NCBI GenBank assembly: GCA_019359125.1
Contig: JAHHHY010000007.1
Location: 23,355-87,354 of the forward strand
Reading direction: 5' to 3'
Length of the DNA stretch: 64,000 bases
Source: Pleurocapsa minor GSE-CHR-MK 17-07R
GTDB lineage: Bacteria; Chloroflexota; Anaerolineae; Aggregatilineales; Phototrophicaceae
Part shown: piece after piece, positions 24,802 through 31,792 of the stretch
Layout of the letters: each line of letters starts with the position of its first letter
How positions within the stretch are numbered: position 1 is the first letter of the stretch
Made by a program: the position numbers and the translations under genes
Notes under the pieces: generated by a model
Database searches by the model: none
What the model saw: the letters and a program-made list of their open reading frames with translations, nothing else
Told to the model about the DNA's origin: nothing

Positions 24802-26985
24802 ATGACAGACGATTTGATCGGCAAGCACATTGGCGACTATGAAATACTGGGCGAAATCGGGCGCGGGGGCATGGCCACCGTGTACCGGGCGCGCCAGACG
24901 TCGATGCTTAACCGTATCGTCGCCCTGAAGCTGCTTCCCAGACACCTGATGAGTGACACGACCTACCTTCAGCGTTTCGAGCGCGAGGTGGAGATCGTGT
25001 CGCGCCTTGAACACCGCAGCATCGTGCCGGTGTACGCGTATGGCGAGCATGAAGGCCAGCCGTATATCGTCATGCGCTATATGGCGGGCGGGTCGATTGA
25101 CCAGCGGCTGAACGCCGGGCCGATGTCCCCTGCCATGATTATCAGTATTTTTGAGCAGATTTGCCCCGCGCTGGACCATGCCCACGCCAAAGACGTGCTG
25201 CACCGCGACCTGAAGCCGTCGAACGTGCTGCTGGATGAAAGCGGCGGCGCTTTCCTGACCGACTTCGGCATCGCCCGCGTGCTGGGCGAAAACAACGCCG
25301 GGACGATCACTACCCAGGGCGTCGTCGGCACGCCCAGCTATATGAGCCCGGAACAGGCGCAGGGCAAGCCGCTCGATAACCGCAGCGACCTGTATTCGAT
25401 GGGCGTGATGCTGTTCGAGATGGCCACCGGCCGCCGCCCGTTTGAGGCCGACACGCCGTATGGCATCGCGGTGGCCCAGGTGACCGAACCGCCGCCGACG
25501 CCGCGCAGTATTCACCCGGACGTGCCGCCGCCGCTGGAAAGCGTCATCCTGACCTCGCTGAGCAAGAACCGCGATCAGCGTTACGAGAGCGCGGCCGCCC
25601 TCATGGACGCGCTGAAGAAAGCGGTGCAGGCGGCCGAAATGGGCATCCATGACACCCAGCCCGGCATGGCGCGCCCGCCGCTGCCCGCCGACGAACCGCC
25701 CGTCTCGCTGGAAGCCACGATTCCACTGACCGCCACGCCCCCGCCCGTGATTCCCGCGCCGCCGCCGCAGACGCCGTCCGAAGTGGTAAACGCCTATGTG
25801 CCGCCGATGTATGCCCAGACCGGGCAGATGACCAGCGGCAATTATGGCCAGGTGCCCAGCGGCACCTTCACTGGCGTGCCGTCTGGCGGGCTGCGCCGCC
25901 GTGTGCGCCAGAGCAACCTGTGGATGAGCGCCGCCCTGGGCGGGCTGATCGGCTGTGGCCTGTTCACCGTGATTGCTATTGTGGCGGTGCTGCTCATCAG
26001 CAGCGCGGCCGATGGCCTGCCTGCTGCCCCGACTGCACCGGCTGATGACGGCGTGCCTGCCCTGCCGACCAATACTGCGCCCGCGCTGGCCAGCACCAAT
26101 ACCCCCCAGCCGGATGCCACGCCTACGCCTGTAGGGGCGACGCCGGACCTGATTCCGGTGGGCGTTGTCGTCAATGGCGAGGCCGTGGCCGGCACACTGG
26201 TTTATTCCGCCGAACGCGCCGGTAATTTTGACATCTATCTGCTCGACCTGGCGACTGGCGCAGAGACGCGCCTGACCGAAAATCCTTCAGCCGATGTCTC
26301 GCCGTATCCATCGCCGGATGGCGAGTCGGTCGTGTTTGCCAGCGACCGCGATGGCGATTTTGAGCTGTATCTGCTTACGCTGGACAGCGGCAGCTTGCGC
26401 GCGCTGACCGATAACGCCGTGGATGACGTGATGCCGTCCTTCAGCCCACAGGGAAGCTGGATCGTGTTTGCCAGCGACACCAGCGGCGATGGCTATTACG
26501 ACCTGTTTCGCGTGGGGCTGAATGGCGCTGCGCCAGAGCGCCTGTTCAGCAGCACCAGCCGCAATGCCGATCCGTACTGGTCTGCAACCGACAACAGCAT
26601 CTATTTTTCAGCGGGAGAGCCGGGCGATGCCCGCACCTGGGAGCTGCGCCGCCTCGACCTGGATGTGGGGGCCGCCGAGACGCTGACCGAGAACAGCGTG
26701 CGCGATCGTGCGCCTGCGCTGGGTGCCGATGGTGCGCTGCTGTTTGAAACCGAAGGCGAAGGCTACGGCGCGATTGCCGTGTTCAATGCTGCCACGCGCG
26801 ACCAGGTCGTACTGTATGACGGCGCCGGTTTTGACTGGGGGCCATCGCTCAGCCCGGATGGCCGCTTCATCGCGTTTACCTCGGATGTCAGCGGGCGCGA
26901 TGAACTGTATGTGATGACCTCGGCTGGAGAAGATGTGACGCTGGTCACAACCACTGGCGGAATGGGTGGCGTATGGATGCCGTGA
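24802..26985 (+). CDS. Ser/Thr protein kinase, TM, C-terminal PD40/TolB-like beta-propeller
   Basis: VLHRDLKPSNVLL, DFGIA, GTPSYMSPEQAQG; single TM; SPDGESVVFASDRDGDFELY repeats. Confidence 0.93.
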   Translation: MTDDLIGKHIGDYEILGEIGRGGMATVYRARQTSMLNRIVALKLLPRHLMSDTTYLQRFEREVEIVSRLEHRSIVPVYAYGEHEGQPYIVMRYMAGGSIDQRLNAGPMSPAMIISIFEQICPALDHAHAKDVLHRDLKPSNVLLDESGGAFLTDFGIARVLGENNAGTITTQGVVGTPSYMSPEQAQGKPLDNRSDLYSMGVMLFEMATGRRPFEADTPYGIAVAQVTEPPPTPRSIHPDVPPPLESVILTSLSKNRDQRYESAAALMDALKKAVQAAEMGIHDTQPGMARPPLPADEPPVSLEATIPLTATPPPVIPAPPPQTPSEVVNAYVPPMYAQTGQMTSGNYGQVPSGTFTGVPSGGLRRRVRQSNLWMSAALGGLIGCGLFTVIAIVAVLLISSAADGLPAAPTAPADDGVPALPTNTAPALASTNTPQPDATPTPVGATPDLIPVGVVVNGEAVAGTLVYSAERAGNFDIYLLDLATGAETRLTENPSADVSPYPSPDGESVVFASDRDGDFELYLLTLDSGSLRALTDNAVDDVMPSFSPQGSWIVFASDTSGDGYYDLFRVGLNGAAPERLFSSTSRNADPYWSATDNSIYFSAGEPGDARTWELRRLDLDVGAAETLTENSVRDRAPALGADGALLFETEGEGYGAIAVFNAATRDQVVLYDGAGFDWGPSLSPDGRFIAFTSDVSGRDELYVMTSAGEDVTLVTTTGGMGGVWMP

Positions 26986-27638
26986 ATCTGACCCGCGCCG
27001 AGCTGGCCGCGGAAGAAATTCGCCGGAATATCATCGCCGGGGGCTATCTGTCGGGCGAACGGCTGGTCGAAATGACCCTGGCGCGCCGCCTCGGCATCAG
27101 CCAGATCACCGTGCGTGACGCGCTGCGCGTGCTGGAGCAGCAGGGCTGGGTGGTGAAGCAGCCCCGGCGCGGCGTCTACGTGCGCGACTTCACGCCGGAA
27201 ACCGCCAGCGAGCTGTATATCCTGTTTGGCGCGATCGAGCGCACCGTGATCGACGCCCTGTGCAGCCTGTCCTCGCGCAAGACCATCCTGAAGCCTGCCT
27301 ATGCCTGCCTGGACGCCGCCGAGGCGCATTTCCTGCGCGGCCAGCGCCGCGAGGGCATCGGCCAGTTGTTCGATACGCATGTTACGCTGGCCGAGGCCAC
27401 CCGCCGCGAACAGACGATGCAACTGCTGAAAGGCATCATCAACCAGGCGCGCCTGCTGGAGGCGATGCGTCAGTCGCGCATTCCCAGCAATGCTAATGAA
27501 TTCAATCAGTACGTGGCCGCGCACCGGACGATGTTCCTGCATATCGAGCACGGGGCCGTCGCCGAGGCACATCAGCAGCTTGGGCTGATTCTGAACACGT
27601 ATACGCAGAATGTGCTGGACGCGCTGACCGTGCGCTGA
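26973..27638 (+). CDS. GntR family transcriptional regulator (FadR subgroup)
   Basis: wHTH ERLVEMTLARRLGISQITVRDALRVLEQQGWVVKQPRRGVYVRDF, FCD-like C-terminus. Confidence 0.9.
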   Translation: MDAVNLTRAELAAEEIRRNIIAGGYLSGERLVEMTLARRLGISQITVRDALRVLEQQGWVVKQPRRGVYVRDFTPETASELYILFGAIERTVIDALCSLSSRKTILKPAYACLDAAEAHFLRGQRREGIGQLFDTHVTLAEATRREQTMQLLKGIINQARLLEAMRQSRIPSNANEFNQYVAAHRTMFLHIEHGAVAEAHQQLGLILNTYTQNVLDALTVR

Positions 27639-27744: not shown

Positions 27745-27773
27745 TTGACAATCTTCTCTGGATAGCGTACATT
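27745..27773 (+). promoter_or_regulatory. Promoter of Cys-leader/cysteine synthase transcript
   Basis: TTGACA (27745-27750), 17-bp spacer, TACATT (27768-27773); predicted TSS near 27780. Confidence 0.7.
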
Positions 27774-27780
27774 CAGAAGC

Positions 27781-27888
27781 ATGAGACACATGAGCACTTC
27801 CACCATCAATCATTCTGTGAACGCCTGTTGTTGTTGTTGTCCGGCAAGCGGGGTTACCCCTTACCTTCACGACGGCACGCGCGTTTAA
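27781..27888 (+). CDS. Leader peptide MRHMSTSTINHSVNACCCCCPASGVTPYLHDGTRV with five consecutive Cys codons
   Basis: In-frame ATGs at 27781 and 27790, TGT x5 at 27826-27840, TAA at 27886-27888; upstream of cysteine synthase; too short for the ORF track. Confidence 0.8.
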   Translation: MRHMSTSTINHSVNACCCCCPASGVTPYLHDGTRV

Positions 27889-27910
27889 GCAGCACACACG
27901 ACAAACGAAG

Positions 27911-27979
27911 CGCAGCCAGAAGGCAGGACGCCCCGAGGACTACTCCGACGGGCGTTTTGTTTTTCTGGCTGCGTTTTTT
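27911..27979 (+). terminator. Nested intrinsic terminator/attenuator upstream of cysteine synthase
   Basis: Outer stem CGCAGCCAGAA (27911-27921)/TTCTGGCTGCG (27963-27973) then T6; inner stem ACGCCC (27928-27933)/GGGCGT (27950-27955) then TTTTGTTTTT. Confidence 0.8.
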
Positions 27980-28012
27980 AGTGCATAAGCACAATGAGGA
28001 GTATCAGGCAAG

Positions 28013-28981
28013 ATGATGCTGACCCCGATGACCATGACTGCTGCACCTTCTGCCACCACCCAGGCCGCGCGCCTGGAATCGCTGATTGGCAATACGCCGC
28101 TGCTGGCGTTCCGCAGCATCACGGCCCACCTGCCGGAGACGGTGCAGGTGTTCGCCAAGGCGGAATGGACCAATCCCGGTGGCAGCGTGAAGGACCGCGC
28201 AGCCGCCAATATCGTGCGCCAGGCCGAGGCATCCGGCCGGCTGGGCAAGGGCCAGATTCTGCTGGACAGCACGAGCGGCAACACCGGCATCGCGTATGCC
28301 ATGCTGGGTGCCGCCAAAGGCTTCAAGGTGAAGCTGTTCCTGCCGGCCAATGCCAGCCCGGAGCGCATCGCCATCCTGCGCGCCTATGGCGCCGAGCTGG
28401 TGCTGACCGACCCGCTGGAAGGCTCTGACGGCGCGATTCGTGCCGTGCGCGAACTGGTCGCGTCTGACCCGGACACCTATTTCTATGCCGACCAGTACAA
28501 CAATCCGGCCAACTGGCAGGCCCACTACAACAGCACCGGCGTGGAAATCTGGAATCAGACCGATGGCCAGGTGACTCATTTCATCGCCGGGCTGGGCACC
28601 AGCGGCACCATGATGGGCACCGGCCGCCGCCTGAAGGATTACGCGGCCGACGTGCAGATCATCGCCATCCAGCCGGATTCACCATTCCACGGGCTGGAAG
28701 GCCTGAAGCACATGCCCACGGCCATCAAGCCTGGCATCTATGACGAATTTTTCCCGGATCGCCAGATGGGCATCTCCACCGAGGACACGTACGTCATGGC
28801 GCGCCGCCTCGCCCGCGAAGAAGGCTACCTGGTTGGCATCAGCTCCGCGTCGGCCATGGTGGGCGCGCTGCAGGTGGCCGAAGAGCTGGCCGGACGCGGG
28901 GAATCCGGCACGATCGTGACGCTGTTCCCCGACAACGCCTATAAGTACCTGAGCGACAAGGCGGTGTGGGGCACGGCGTAG
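28013..28981 (+). CDS. Cysteine synthase (PLP-dependent, CysK/CysM family)
   Basis: LIGNTPLLAF, NPGGSVKDRAAANIV, STSGNTGIAYAMLGAAKGFKVKLFLP, GLGTSGTMMGTGR. Confidence 0.93.
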   Translation: MMLTPMTMTAAPSATTQAARLESLIGNTPLLAFRSITAHLPETVQVFAKAEWTNPGGSVKDRAAANIVRQAEASGRLGKGQILLDSTSGNTGIAYAMLGAAKGFKVKLFLPANASPERIAILRAYGAELVLTDPLEGSDGAIRAVRELVASDPDTYFYADQYNNPANWQAHYNSTGVEIWNQTDGQVTHFIAGLGTSGTMMGTGRRLKDYAADVQIIAIQPDSPFHGLEGLKHMPTAIKPGIYDEFFPDRQMGISTEDTYVMARRLAREEGYLVGISSASAMVGALQVAEELAGRGESGTIVTLFPDNAYKYLSDKAVWGTA

Positions 28982-29134: not shown

Positions 29135-31228
29135 TCAGCCGAGGCAGTCGTCTGGACAGGTTGCAAAGTCTTCCGTCGGCCCGCAGATGAGGTCACCGCA
29201 GAAATCTCCTGGCGGGGTTATCTCCGGCGTGGTGGGGAAGCAGTCTTCGGGACAATATGTGCCTTCGTAAAAGTCCTCATCTTCGAACGGAGACACACAG
29301 ATGCCATCTCCGCACACAATGCAGTCGGAACACGTATTCTGATCTTCGCCACGGCCGGGCTCGCAGATGTCGTTGAAATTGCAGCCACAGTCTTCGTAGC
29401 AGCTTTCAGAGTTTTCGCCAGAGCGTCCGTCACACACGTTATCGCCGCAGAACGATGGAATCGGCGTTGAGGTGGGCAAGTCGGTGGGCACGGAAGTGGG
29501 CTGTGGCGTCGGCCATGGGGTTTCGGTGACGCTGGGCGTTGCCGTCGGCACCAGGCTGGGCGTAAAGGTGATACGCACACGCGTCGCGGTCGGCGAGGGC
29601 GTGGGTGTGCCGGTGCGCGTGGGCGGCGGCGGCAGCGGACGTTCTTCCAGCGGCTCGAACAGCTCGCACAGGACGGCCTCGCCCGCGCAGGTGGTGCGAT
29701 ACGAGAGCTGACCGCGCGCATTTGGCTCCGCGGCCAGCACTTCCACCACGAACGTGCCGCTGTTGGGCGCCACAATCACGCGGTTTTCCGTCTGACGCCC
29801 GCCGATCATCTGCGCGATGATCAGGCCATCTTCGTCGCGCACCGAGAACTTGAACGGGAAGGTGAACGGGTCGCCCTCGCTCAGGTTGGTGAATACCAGC
29901 GTGGTCGGGCAGTCGCCGCGGCTGTCAAACTGGAAATACTGTGGCGGATTCGGCTGGGCAACCGAGGCATCGCGCGGGGGCGCTTCAAAATTGATCACGT
30001 CCCCGAAGGCCAGCGACTGCGGCGAGAAGAACGGGATGCTGTTCACGCGCACCAGGAAGGTGCCGCCGGTGCCATTTTCCCCGCCCACCAGCACGTTATA
30101 CACGCCGTCCAGCGGCAGGTACAGGTCCACCGAGGCGTCGGTGGCGTTGAAGCTGAACTGGTCGTCGGCATTCTGCGTGACGACCGCGCCATTCGGCCCG
30201 ATCACGGTGAGCTGCGGGTCAAAGCCGAAGCTGATGCCGATCACCTGCACGCTGACGAGCTGGCCTGCCGAGCCGGCAAACTGGTAATTGAGCAGCGGCG
30301 AGCCTTCCCCGATGACGCCCAGCGAAGTCTGGAAGAAGTCCAGCGTGCCCGCCTGCTGAATGAATGCAAGCTGGCCACTTGATGGCGTGGGTGACGGCGT
30401 CGGTGTGGCGATGCGCGGCGGCGGCAGCACGGGCAGCTCGCAGGTCGGCTGAGTCTCGAAGCAGGTCACCGAGACGAGCAGATTGCCATCTTCCAGCGCC
30501 TCGCCGGAAATAGCGGACAGCTCCACTTCGTAGGTGCCGCTCTCGGCGAAGAAGCTGATGCGGTCTTCCAGCTGGCGGCCGCCGCGCATCTGGCCGACGA
30601 GCTGGCCGTTGGTGTCGCGCACGCGAATCAGATACGGGAACGAGAACGGCGTGCCAGCGGTGCGGTTGGTCACCGTCAGCGTGGTCGGGCACGATTCGGT
30701 GCTGGTGAATTTGGTCACGACAGGCGCGCCAGACTGCGGCACGGTCACGGTCGAGCCCAGCTCACGCGGCAGGTCGATGCGCGGAATGGCCAGTCGCGCC
30801 GTAATCTGCAGCAGGTATTCGCCGGTGGTGCCGCCCGCCGCGCTGACGATCAGCGTGTAGGTGCCCGTTTCCGGCAGGTAATAGGACAGCGCGGCGTCCG
30901 TGGACTGGCTGCTGTACAGGTCGGTTGTGCCGGTAATCAGCGGCTGCTGGTTCGGCCCGATCAGCGACAGGTCGGGGTTCAGGCTGCCGGAAGTCGCGAT
31001 GGCGCGGATGTGCACCAGGTCTTCCTGCGATCCCTCGAAGGTGTAGATGCTGCTGGCGAAGCCCTGTCCCAGCGAGGCGATCAGGCTGGTGCCATAGGTG
31101 ATAGGCTGGCCAAACTGCGCCGCCGGTGCGGCCGGAGCAGCCTGTCTGGCTGCCGCTGGCAGGATGCCCAACGAGAGAAAGAGTGCTGCGAGCAGCAGGG
31201 TCAAGCGGAAAGGTGTGCGTTTGGACAT
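29135..31228 (-). CDS. Secreted protein with PPC-like beta-sandwich repeats, low-complexity PT linker and four CGD-x2-C cysteine-rich modules
   Basis: Signal peptide MSKRTPFRLTLLLAALFLSLGILPAAA; C-terminal FCGDNVCDG..., VCGDGICV..., FCGDLICG... with 16 Cys. Confidence 0.78.
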   Translation of the reverse strand: MSKRTPFRLTLLLAALFLSLGILPAAARQAAPAAPAAQFGQPITYGTSLIASLGQGFASSIYTFEGSQEDLVHIRAIATSGSLNPDLSLIGPNQQPLITGTTDLYSSQSTDAALSYYLPETGTYTLIVSAAGGTTGEYLLQITARLAIPRIDLPRELGSTVTVPQSGAPVVTKFTSTESCPTTLTVTNRTAGTPFSFPYLIRVRDTNGQLVGQMRGGRQLEDRISFFAESGTYEVELSAISGEALEDGNLLVSVTCFETQPTCELPVLPPPRIATPTPSPTPSSGQLAFIQQAGTLDFFQTSLGVIGEGSPLLNYQFAGSAGQLVSVQVIGISFGFDPQLTVIGPNGAVVTQNADDQFSFNATDASVDLYLPLDGVYNVLVGGENGTGGTFLVRVNSIPFFSPQSLAFGDVINFEAPPRDASVAQPNPPQYFQFDSRGDCPTTLVFTNLSEGDPFTFPFKFSVRDEDGLIIAQMIGGRQTENRVIVAPNSGTFVVEVLAAEPNARGQLSYRTTCAGEAVLCELFEPLEERPLPPPPTRTGTPTPSPTATRVRITFTPSLVPTATPSVTETPWPTPQPTSVPTDLPTSTPIPSFCGDNVCDGRSGENSESCYEDCGCNFNDICEPGRGEDQNTCSDCIVCGDGICVSPFEDEDFYEGTYCPEDCFPTTPEITPPGDFCGDLICGPTEDFATCPDDCLG

Positions 31229-31429
31229 AAGCGCGCTCCATTTGCGAATAATCGGCTGCGATGAGTCGTGTATAGCTGTGAGTATAGTGGTTTCACAAAT
31301 CACTGCCAGCGCGCCCGGCCTGGGGTCGGCTGCGCATGGCCCTGGCTGCCCCGAAAGGTTTCCGGTCTCTGCCGCGTCTCGCATGTGCACCAGCATACGA
31401 CCGTAAAAGACAGCACGAGGACGTTCATT

Positions 31430-31792
31430 GTGAGTGATGTGATCAATATCGCCGAAAAATTTACACAATTTTCAGACCAGTGGAGCCCCAAGATCGTCGC
31501 TGACCTGAATGATTCGCATATCAAGCTGGCGAAGATCGAAGGCGAATTTGTCTGGCACCATCATGAACACGAAGATGAGATGTTCCTGATTATCAAAGGC
31601 ACGCTGCATATGCAGTATCGCGACCGCACGGTGACCGCCCGCGAAGGCGAATTTATCGTGGTGCCGAAGGGGGTAGAGCACTGCCCGAAAACCGAGGGCG
31701 AGGTGCACATTATGCTGATCGAGCCAAAGTCGACCCTGCATACCGGCGACACCGTCTCCGAGCGCACGGTGAAGGAATACCAGCGCATCTGA
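31430..31792 (+). CDS. Cupin domain protein
   Basis: GTG start; FVWHHHEHEDEMFLIIKGTLHMQYRDRTVTAREGEFIVVPKGVEHCP. Confidence 0.88.
   Translation: MSDVINIAEKFTQFSDQWSPKIVADLNDSHIKLAKIEGEFVWHHHEHEDEMFLIIKGTLHMQYRDRTVTAREGEFIVVPKGVEHCPKTEGEVHIMLIEPKSTLHTGDTVSERTVKEYQRI

Follow-up and report, generated by a model that had tools for sequence, protein, structure and literature searches.

What does a 35-codon open reading frame (ORF) with five consecutive cysteine codons do between a promoter and a gene for cysteine synthase? The arrangement lies in the window, the whole stretch of 64,000 nucleotides that was analysed, and an earlier note had proposed that it is a cysteine-responsive attenuator. The coordinates given there for the promoter, the ORF, the TGT run, the terminator and the cysteine synthase ORF can all be read directly in the sequence. 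A cysteine-responsive attenuator also emerges here as the best reading, with the Cys leader, an antiterminator and the terminator co-varying class-wide and marking sulfur genes, and with cysteine as the presumed signal. More precisely, the element is very probably a ribosome-mediated transcription attenuator of the classical type, sensing charged tRNA-Cys ahead of cysteine synthase. The whole analysis is sequence-based, with loci taken mostly from metagenome-assembled genomes, and from it are drawn the parts of the element, their conservation and covariation, the predicted switch and the association with genes. The features of the window are as follows.

27745–27773, forward strand: sigma-70 type promoter TTGACA-17-TACATT (direct reading and promoter scan)
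27745–27750, forward strand: TTGACA, with a 17-nt spacer to TACATT at 27768–27773
27781–27888, forward strand: leader ORF of 35 codons, MRHMSTSTINHSVNACCCCCPASGVTPYLHDGTRV, with ATG at 27781 and TAA at 27886–27888
27826–27840, forward strand: five consecutive TGT control codons (direct reading)
27818–27887, forward strand: predicted protector hairpin, pairing 1:2 (folds and covariation)
27849–27868, forward strand: predicted antiterminator 5' strand, region 2, with CGGGGT, CCT and CCTTC (duplex, covariation and masked fold)
27919–27935, forward strand: predicted antiterminator 3' strand and terminator 5' arm, region 3, with GAAGG, AGG and GCCCCG
27907–27977, forward strand: nested intrinsic terminator (fold and covariation)
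27924–27933/27950–27959, forward strand: terminator inner stem
27907–27923/27961–27977, forward strand: terminator outer stem
27955–27964, forward strand: inner U tract (sequence)
27974–27979, forward strand: outer U tract (sequence)
28013–28981, forward strand: regulated gene, cysteine synthase of the CysK/CysM type (PALP, 1.1e-66; TIGR01138, 8.6e-105)

Against the CysK/CysM models, TIGR01138 included, the ORF at 28013–28981 scores slightly under the curated cut-offs. Directly upstream of the attenuator is a GntR-family regulator gene (26973–27638, forward strand), the start of which overlaps by 13 nt with a gene for a fusion of a Ser/Thr kinase with a WD40-like propeller (24802–26985, forward strand). 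The product of the neighbour convergent with cysteine synthase (29135–31468, reverse strand) looks secreted and combines PPC domains with a Cys-rich tail of CGDxxC-type repeats.

The promoter scan returned TTGACA-17-TACATT as its sole match, and in 60 of the 68 related loci an exact TTGACA is found no more than 150 nt ahead of the leader. The earlier suggestion of a leaderless leader ORF stands for the window genome, where the ORF is probably leaderless, and for two congeners (L019 and L025); in all three the predicted transcription start site coincides with the leader ATG, at 27781 in the window. It does not extend to the family, since in the majority of orthologues the leader ORF starts ~20–50 nt past the predicted start site, and many of them have a short Shine-Dalgarno-like element. 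An apparent change to leaderless initiation is thus seen within one genus, in the window genome, L019 and L025, against a 5' leader elsewhere.

Cysteine accounts for 0.7% of the codons in the long ORFs of the window, and five consecutive Cys codons are expected ~2e-6 times in it; coincidence is ruled out because the run is conserved in orthologues. Orthologous loci were fetched with the cysteine synthase protein of the window as the query, and a Cys-codon leader precedes the orthologous cysteine synthases at most Anaerolineae (Chloroflexota) loci. The earlier note had named a lack of conservation of the Cys run or the terminator in homologous loci as the outcome that would speak against it; the opposite was found, with both conserved. 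In Aggregatilineales and other Anaerolineae there are, for example, leader peptides that begin with MQLCLCCCCLKCGR, MIQQACLCLKQGR or MKPFTHCLC or that read, up to the stop codon, MLFQHCCCCLKRGR and MKYLTCCCCCCQMR, and the control codons are either consecutive (CCC to CCCCCC) or alternating (CLC, CMC, CIC). The L022 and L048 leaders have just one Cys codon, the leader is diverged in L020, L048 and L059, and none was found upstream of the orthologous cysteine synthase at L038. The poly-Cys leaders (n = 38) contain 136 TGT and 19 TGC codons, the opposite of the preference in the long ORFs of the window (28 TGT and 93 TGC).

The other poly-TGY sites of this genome (L001–L008) were also considered, and no second leader was found among them. 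At most of these sites TGY occurs only on the strand opposite to the scanned one or inside coding sequence. The CCCCC stretch of L003 is not in the context of a cysteine gene, and L004, which falls within a regulator-like gene, has no start codon.

The terminator consists of two nested stems with one U tract for each, and its fold of -47.8 kcal/mol (z = -8.6) was matched by 0/200 shuffles. The inner U tract is present in 32/32 aligned leaders and the outer one in 29/32. A consensus terminator scan of the window missed the terminator at 27907–27977, probably because of its loop limit of 8 nt. In the modelled structures the outer 5' arm lies inside the antiterminator loop, and the nested stems may serve as a two-stage lock.

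The best-surviving rival explanation is translational attenuation as in mycobacteria. Stalling of the ribosome would then expose a ribosome-binding site of cysteine synthase that is otherwise sequestered, and control would not be exerted on transcription. The window leader is likely leaderless, as in mycobacteria, and the account in PMC9031893 has the poly-Cys leaderless ORFs of M. smegmatis controlling downstream translation. However, the conserved structure ends in U tracts ahead of the gene, and in L030 and L042 the U tract is ~280–290 nt before the matched gene start, too distant for masking of the ribosome-binding site. In the minimum free energy fold of the window, the Shine-Dalgarno region of cysteine synthase is also outside the terminator stem. 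We consider control at translation very unlikely, and transcription attenuation is the reading pursued below.

The earlier note had seen no long convincing antiterminator and had pointed to a short complementarity between CGGGG and CCCCG. That complementarity is part of a 14-bp antiterminator formed by 27849–27868 with 27919–27935, which has two more segments. In the protector hairpin, the Cys codons are paired with 27870–27887, and a small inner hairpin is found at 27846–27862. A MAFFT alignment of 32 leaders was the basis for the conserved order and for covariation. The 5' part of the conserved order comprises the Cys codons, a CTGAAG-like segment, a GGGGCG-like block with a nearby stop codon and a CTTCAG-like segment; the 3' part comprises a variable linker, a GAAG..CGCCCC-like block, the terminator 3' arm, a U tract, the outer arm and a further U tract. 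In this alignment, region 2 is the GGGGCG/CTTCAG part and region 3 the GAAG/CGCCCC part, and the 2:3 pairing has a counterpart in 32/32 leaders.

Pairing specificity was assessed by comparing the duplex energies of matched region pairs with those of pairs swapped between sequences. Over the 32 leaders, the z-scores are -9.4 for 2:3 (0/20000), -8.4 for 3:4, -13.3 for the outer stem and -3.1 for 1:2, and the control regions are flat (-0.5 for linker:3 and 0.1 for 2:4). The 2:3 signal holds at z = -7.3 with one sequence per clade (0/20000) and at z = -2.5 within the genus. These values come from fixed, double-centred regions, which replaced an initial duplex comparison of complete, unaligned segments (z = -5.0) that was confounded by length and GC. 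Pair counting on the trimmed alignment agrees: 65.8% of cells pair, against 39–51% after a slide of 1–3 columns, and 15/19 pairs have changes on both sides. A one-column slippage of the GGGGCG block among the leaders makes these counts weaker. For covariation only MAFFT alignments were used, since those behind a second covariance model had been fitted to the structure of that model.

The covariation bears on the proposal that the ORF encodes a small functional Cys-rich peptide (e.g., metal- or thiol-binding) followed by an ordinary terminator, with a metabolic and not a regulatory linkage to cysteine synthase. Conservation of the ORF agrees with this proposal. However, what is conserved is the RNA complementarity and not the peptide, which, outside the Cys codons and the part that region 2 encodes, varies in sequence, start and stop, and a terminator behind a peptide gene needs no co-varying antiterminator. 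A functional peptide is even less probable than translational attenuation. A ligand-binding riboswitch or T-box governing the terminator, with an incidental ORF, has an equally slim chance: an alternative structure with a terminator is likewise riboswitch-like, but Rfam covariance models at gathering score give no match in the window or 14 related loci, the leader alignment has no conserved aptamer-like block beyond the ORF and its complements, and no coding feature is more constant than the Cys codons.

For a transcription attenuator, folding of the leader with and without an occluded Cys region, as the earlier note had proposed, does predict a switch. With the window RNA ending at region 3, the ribosome-free fold holds the Cys codons in a hairpin and the 2:3 helix has 0.0 expected bp; masking of these codons, in imitation of a stalled ribosome, raises this to 13.6 expected bp. 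Masking increases 2:3 pairing by at least 2 bp in 16/32 leaders and reverses it in none (Wilcoxon p = 3e-9). In the other 16/32 leaders, folding favours the antiterminator with no ribosome present, so there the stop codon inside region 2 would have to act. This suggests a second route, in which a ribosome at the stop codon inside region 2, as found in many of the remaining leaders, would cover region 2. The stop codon of the window is past region 2, and a terminating ribosome would therefore cover it poorly.

In the proposed mechanism, RNA polymerase would start near 27780 and a ribosome would follow on the leader ORF. When Cys-tRNA is sufficient, the ribosome would clear the five Cys codons and depart, and the Cys segment would refold with 27870–27887 into the protector hairpin, keeping region 2 from region 3. 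The nested terminator (27907–27979) would then halt transcription ahead of the cysteine synthase gene. Under a shortage of Cys-tRNA, the ribosome would stall on the TGT run and the protector hairpin would be opened, so that region 2 could capture region 3 as it emerges, the terminator would come too late and cysteine synthase would be transcribed. In equilibrium folding of the window, the terminator beats the antiterminator once the RNA passes ~27954, so readthrough would need kinetic switching; persistence of the antiterminator until the polymerase clears the U tracts is plausible in this model. Ribosome stalling, the Cys signal and this kinetic escape from termination are the steps that we infer.

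A covariance model built from the Cys codons and the 2:3 helix recovers 85 of 97 Anaerolineae loci, and several of the 12 missed show the leader by eye. The model was run on whole genomes without regard to genes and matches 101/151 genomes of the order. It also matches 38/399 genomes drawn from the phylum, 36 of them in the same class, and the element is present in loci of Thermoflexus, which NCBI taxonomy places in a class of its own, Thermoflexia. The window genome has one model site only, that of the window. Among 96 fetched sites (a few fetched under two locus names; L158 and L160, in-coding sites of an earlier model, excluded), 91 are located just upstream of sulfur genes. By Pfam, the majority of these genes are cysteine synthases, and the others are ATP sulfurylase, sulfite reductase, O-acetylhomoserine sulfhydrylase-like, rhodanese and DUF4395 genes. 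The remaining five sites are L171, at a contig end, and the four weakest (E 0.004 to 0.05), inside coding sequence, two of which are the sole matches outside the class. The out-of-class L220 and L221 and the weak in-class L158, L160, L223 and L232 fall within coding sequence and were discarded as false positives.

The presence of homologous leaders before other sulfur genes points to a Cys-controlled regulon in the class. We think it likely that Anaerolineae have a class-wide cysteine regulon that operates through ribosomes translating homologous Cys leader ORFs and through nested two-stage terminators, an independent transcription-level counterpart of the mycobacterial Cys-ORFs, and that it takes in sulfate assimilation, thiosulfate/rhodanese, DUF4395-thioredoxin and cysteine synthase genes.

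Genes for DUF4395 membrane proteins carry the same Cys attenuator at L147, L153, L189, L194, L206, L225, L238 and L239, with a thioredoxin-like gene after the DUF4395 gene where checked (L147 and L153). This suggests that DUF4395 contributes to the supply of sulfur or cysteine. At L152, L154, L163, L164, L166, L226, L227, L229, L230 and L233, a CxC leader of its own precedes a gene with a rhodanese domain (thiosulfate sulfurtransferase-like), a hint that cysteine is made with sulfur from thiosulfate.

Outside Chloroflexota, a CCC leader (beginning MARLCCCRRMRGG and MAMCCCRRTWDGS) precedes cysteine synthase in Bacterium HR08 and an Acidobacteriota MAG (L104:1757–1877 and L115:1771–1884). In this type, the terminator 5' arm contains CCACTGCCGGAGAG, with which CTCTCCGGCGGTGG pairs at -30.4 kcal/mol. 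The leader sequence is unrelated and the logic equal, which looks like convergent evolution.

The attenuator predicts control of sulfur assimilation in a large, mostly uncultured class, and it links DUF4395 and a rhodanese to cysteine supply. It also supplies the missing terminator and antiterminator for Cys-codon leaders, the mechanism of which was open in Actinobacteria (PMC1262725). The covariance model makes the regulon searchable. No earlier description of the element was found in Rfam or in the literature; subscription journals were mostly outside the search, so one is possible.

The element shares its logic with the trp, his and leu attenuators. Its sequence has a cognate-codon ORF, an intrinsic terminator between the ORF and the gene and a predicted mutually exclusive antiterminator. 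Like the trp, his, leu and thr attenuators of enterobacteria and the ilvB and trp attenuators of Actinobacteria, it combines a cognate-codon leader ORF, an intrinsic terminator and a cognate-pathway gene with overlapping 1:2, 2:3 and 3:4 pairings. It differs from them in having cysteine as the cognate amino acid, a nested double terminator, several unlinked sulfur genes and no match to Rfam leader families, and in occurring in Chloroflexota.

In 2005, short ORFs that contain Cys runs and precede cys operons or cbs were proposed as candidate Cys leaders in Mycobacterium, Propionibacterium acnes and Bifidobacterium longum (PMC1262725); their authors detected no conservation of terminator hairpins and did not commit to a mechanism. 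By comparison, terminator and antiterminator are conserved and co-varying in the Anaerolineae leaders. In M. smegmatis, leaderless poly-Cys ORFs regulate translation of downstream genes (Canestrari et al. 2020, as cited in PMC9031893 and PMC9094748). As far as those citing accounts go, both systems have contiguous Cys codons before genes of Cys metabolism and several loci per organism that presumably respond together, and the window genome shares the leaderless start. Cys leader ORFs recur in a second phylum, where the output step is probably a different one. The mycobacterial ORFs are described there as acting on downstream translation, whereas the Anaerolineae members are mostly not leaderless (the window, L019 and L025 are the likely exceptions) and end in conserved intrinsic terminators, well ahead of the gene in L030 and L042. 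On the sequence evidence, the majority of Anaerolineae members are closer to the trp, his and leu attenuators than to the mycobacterial leaderless ORFs, and the element is classed as a variant of the leader-peptide attenuator and not as a member of the mycobacterial leaderless type.
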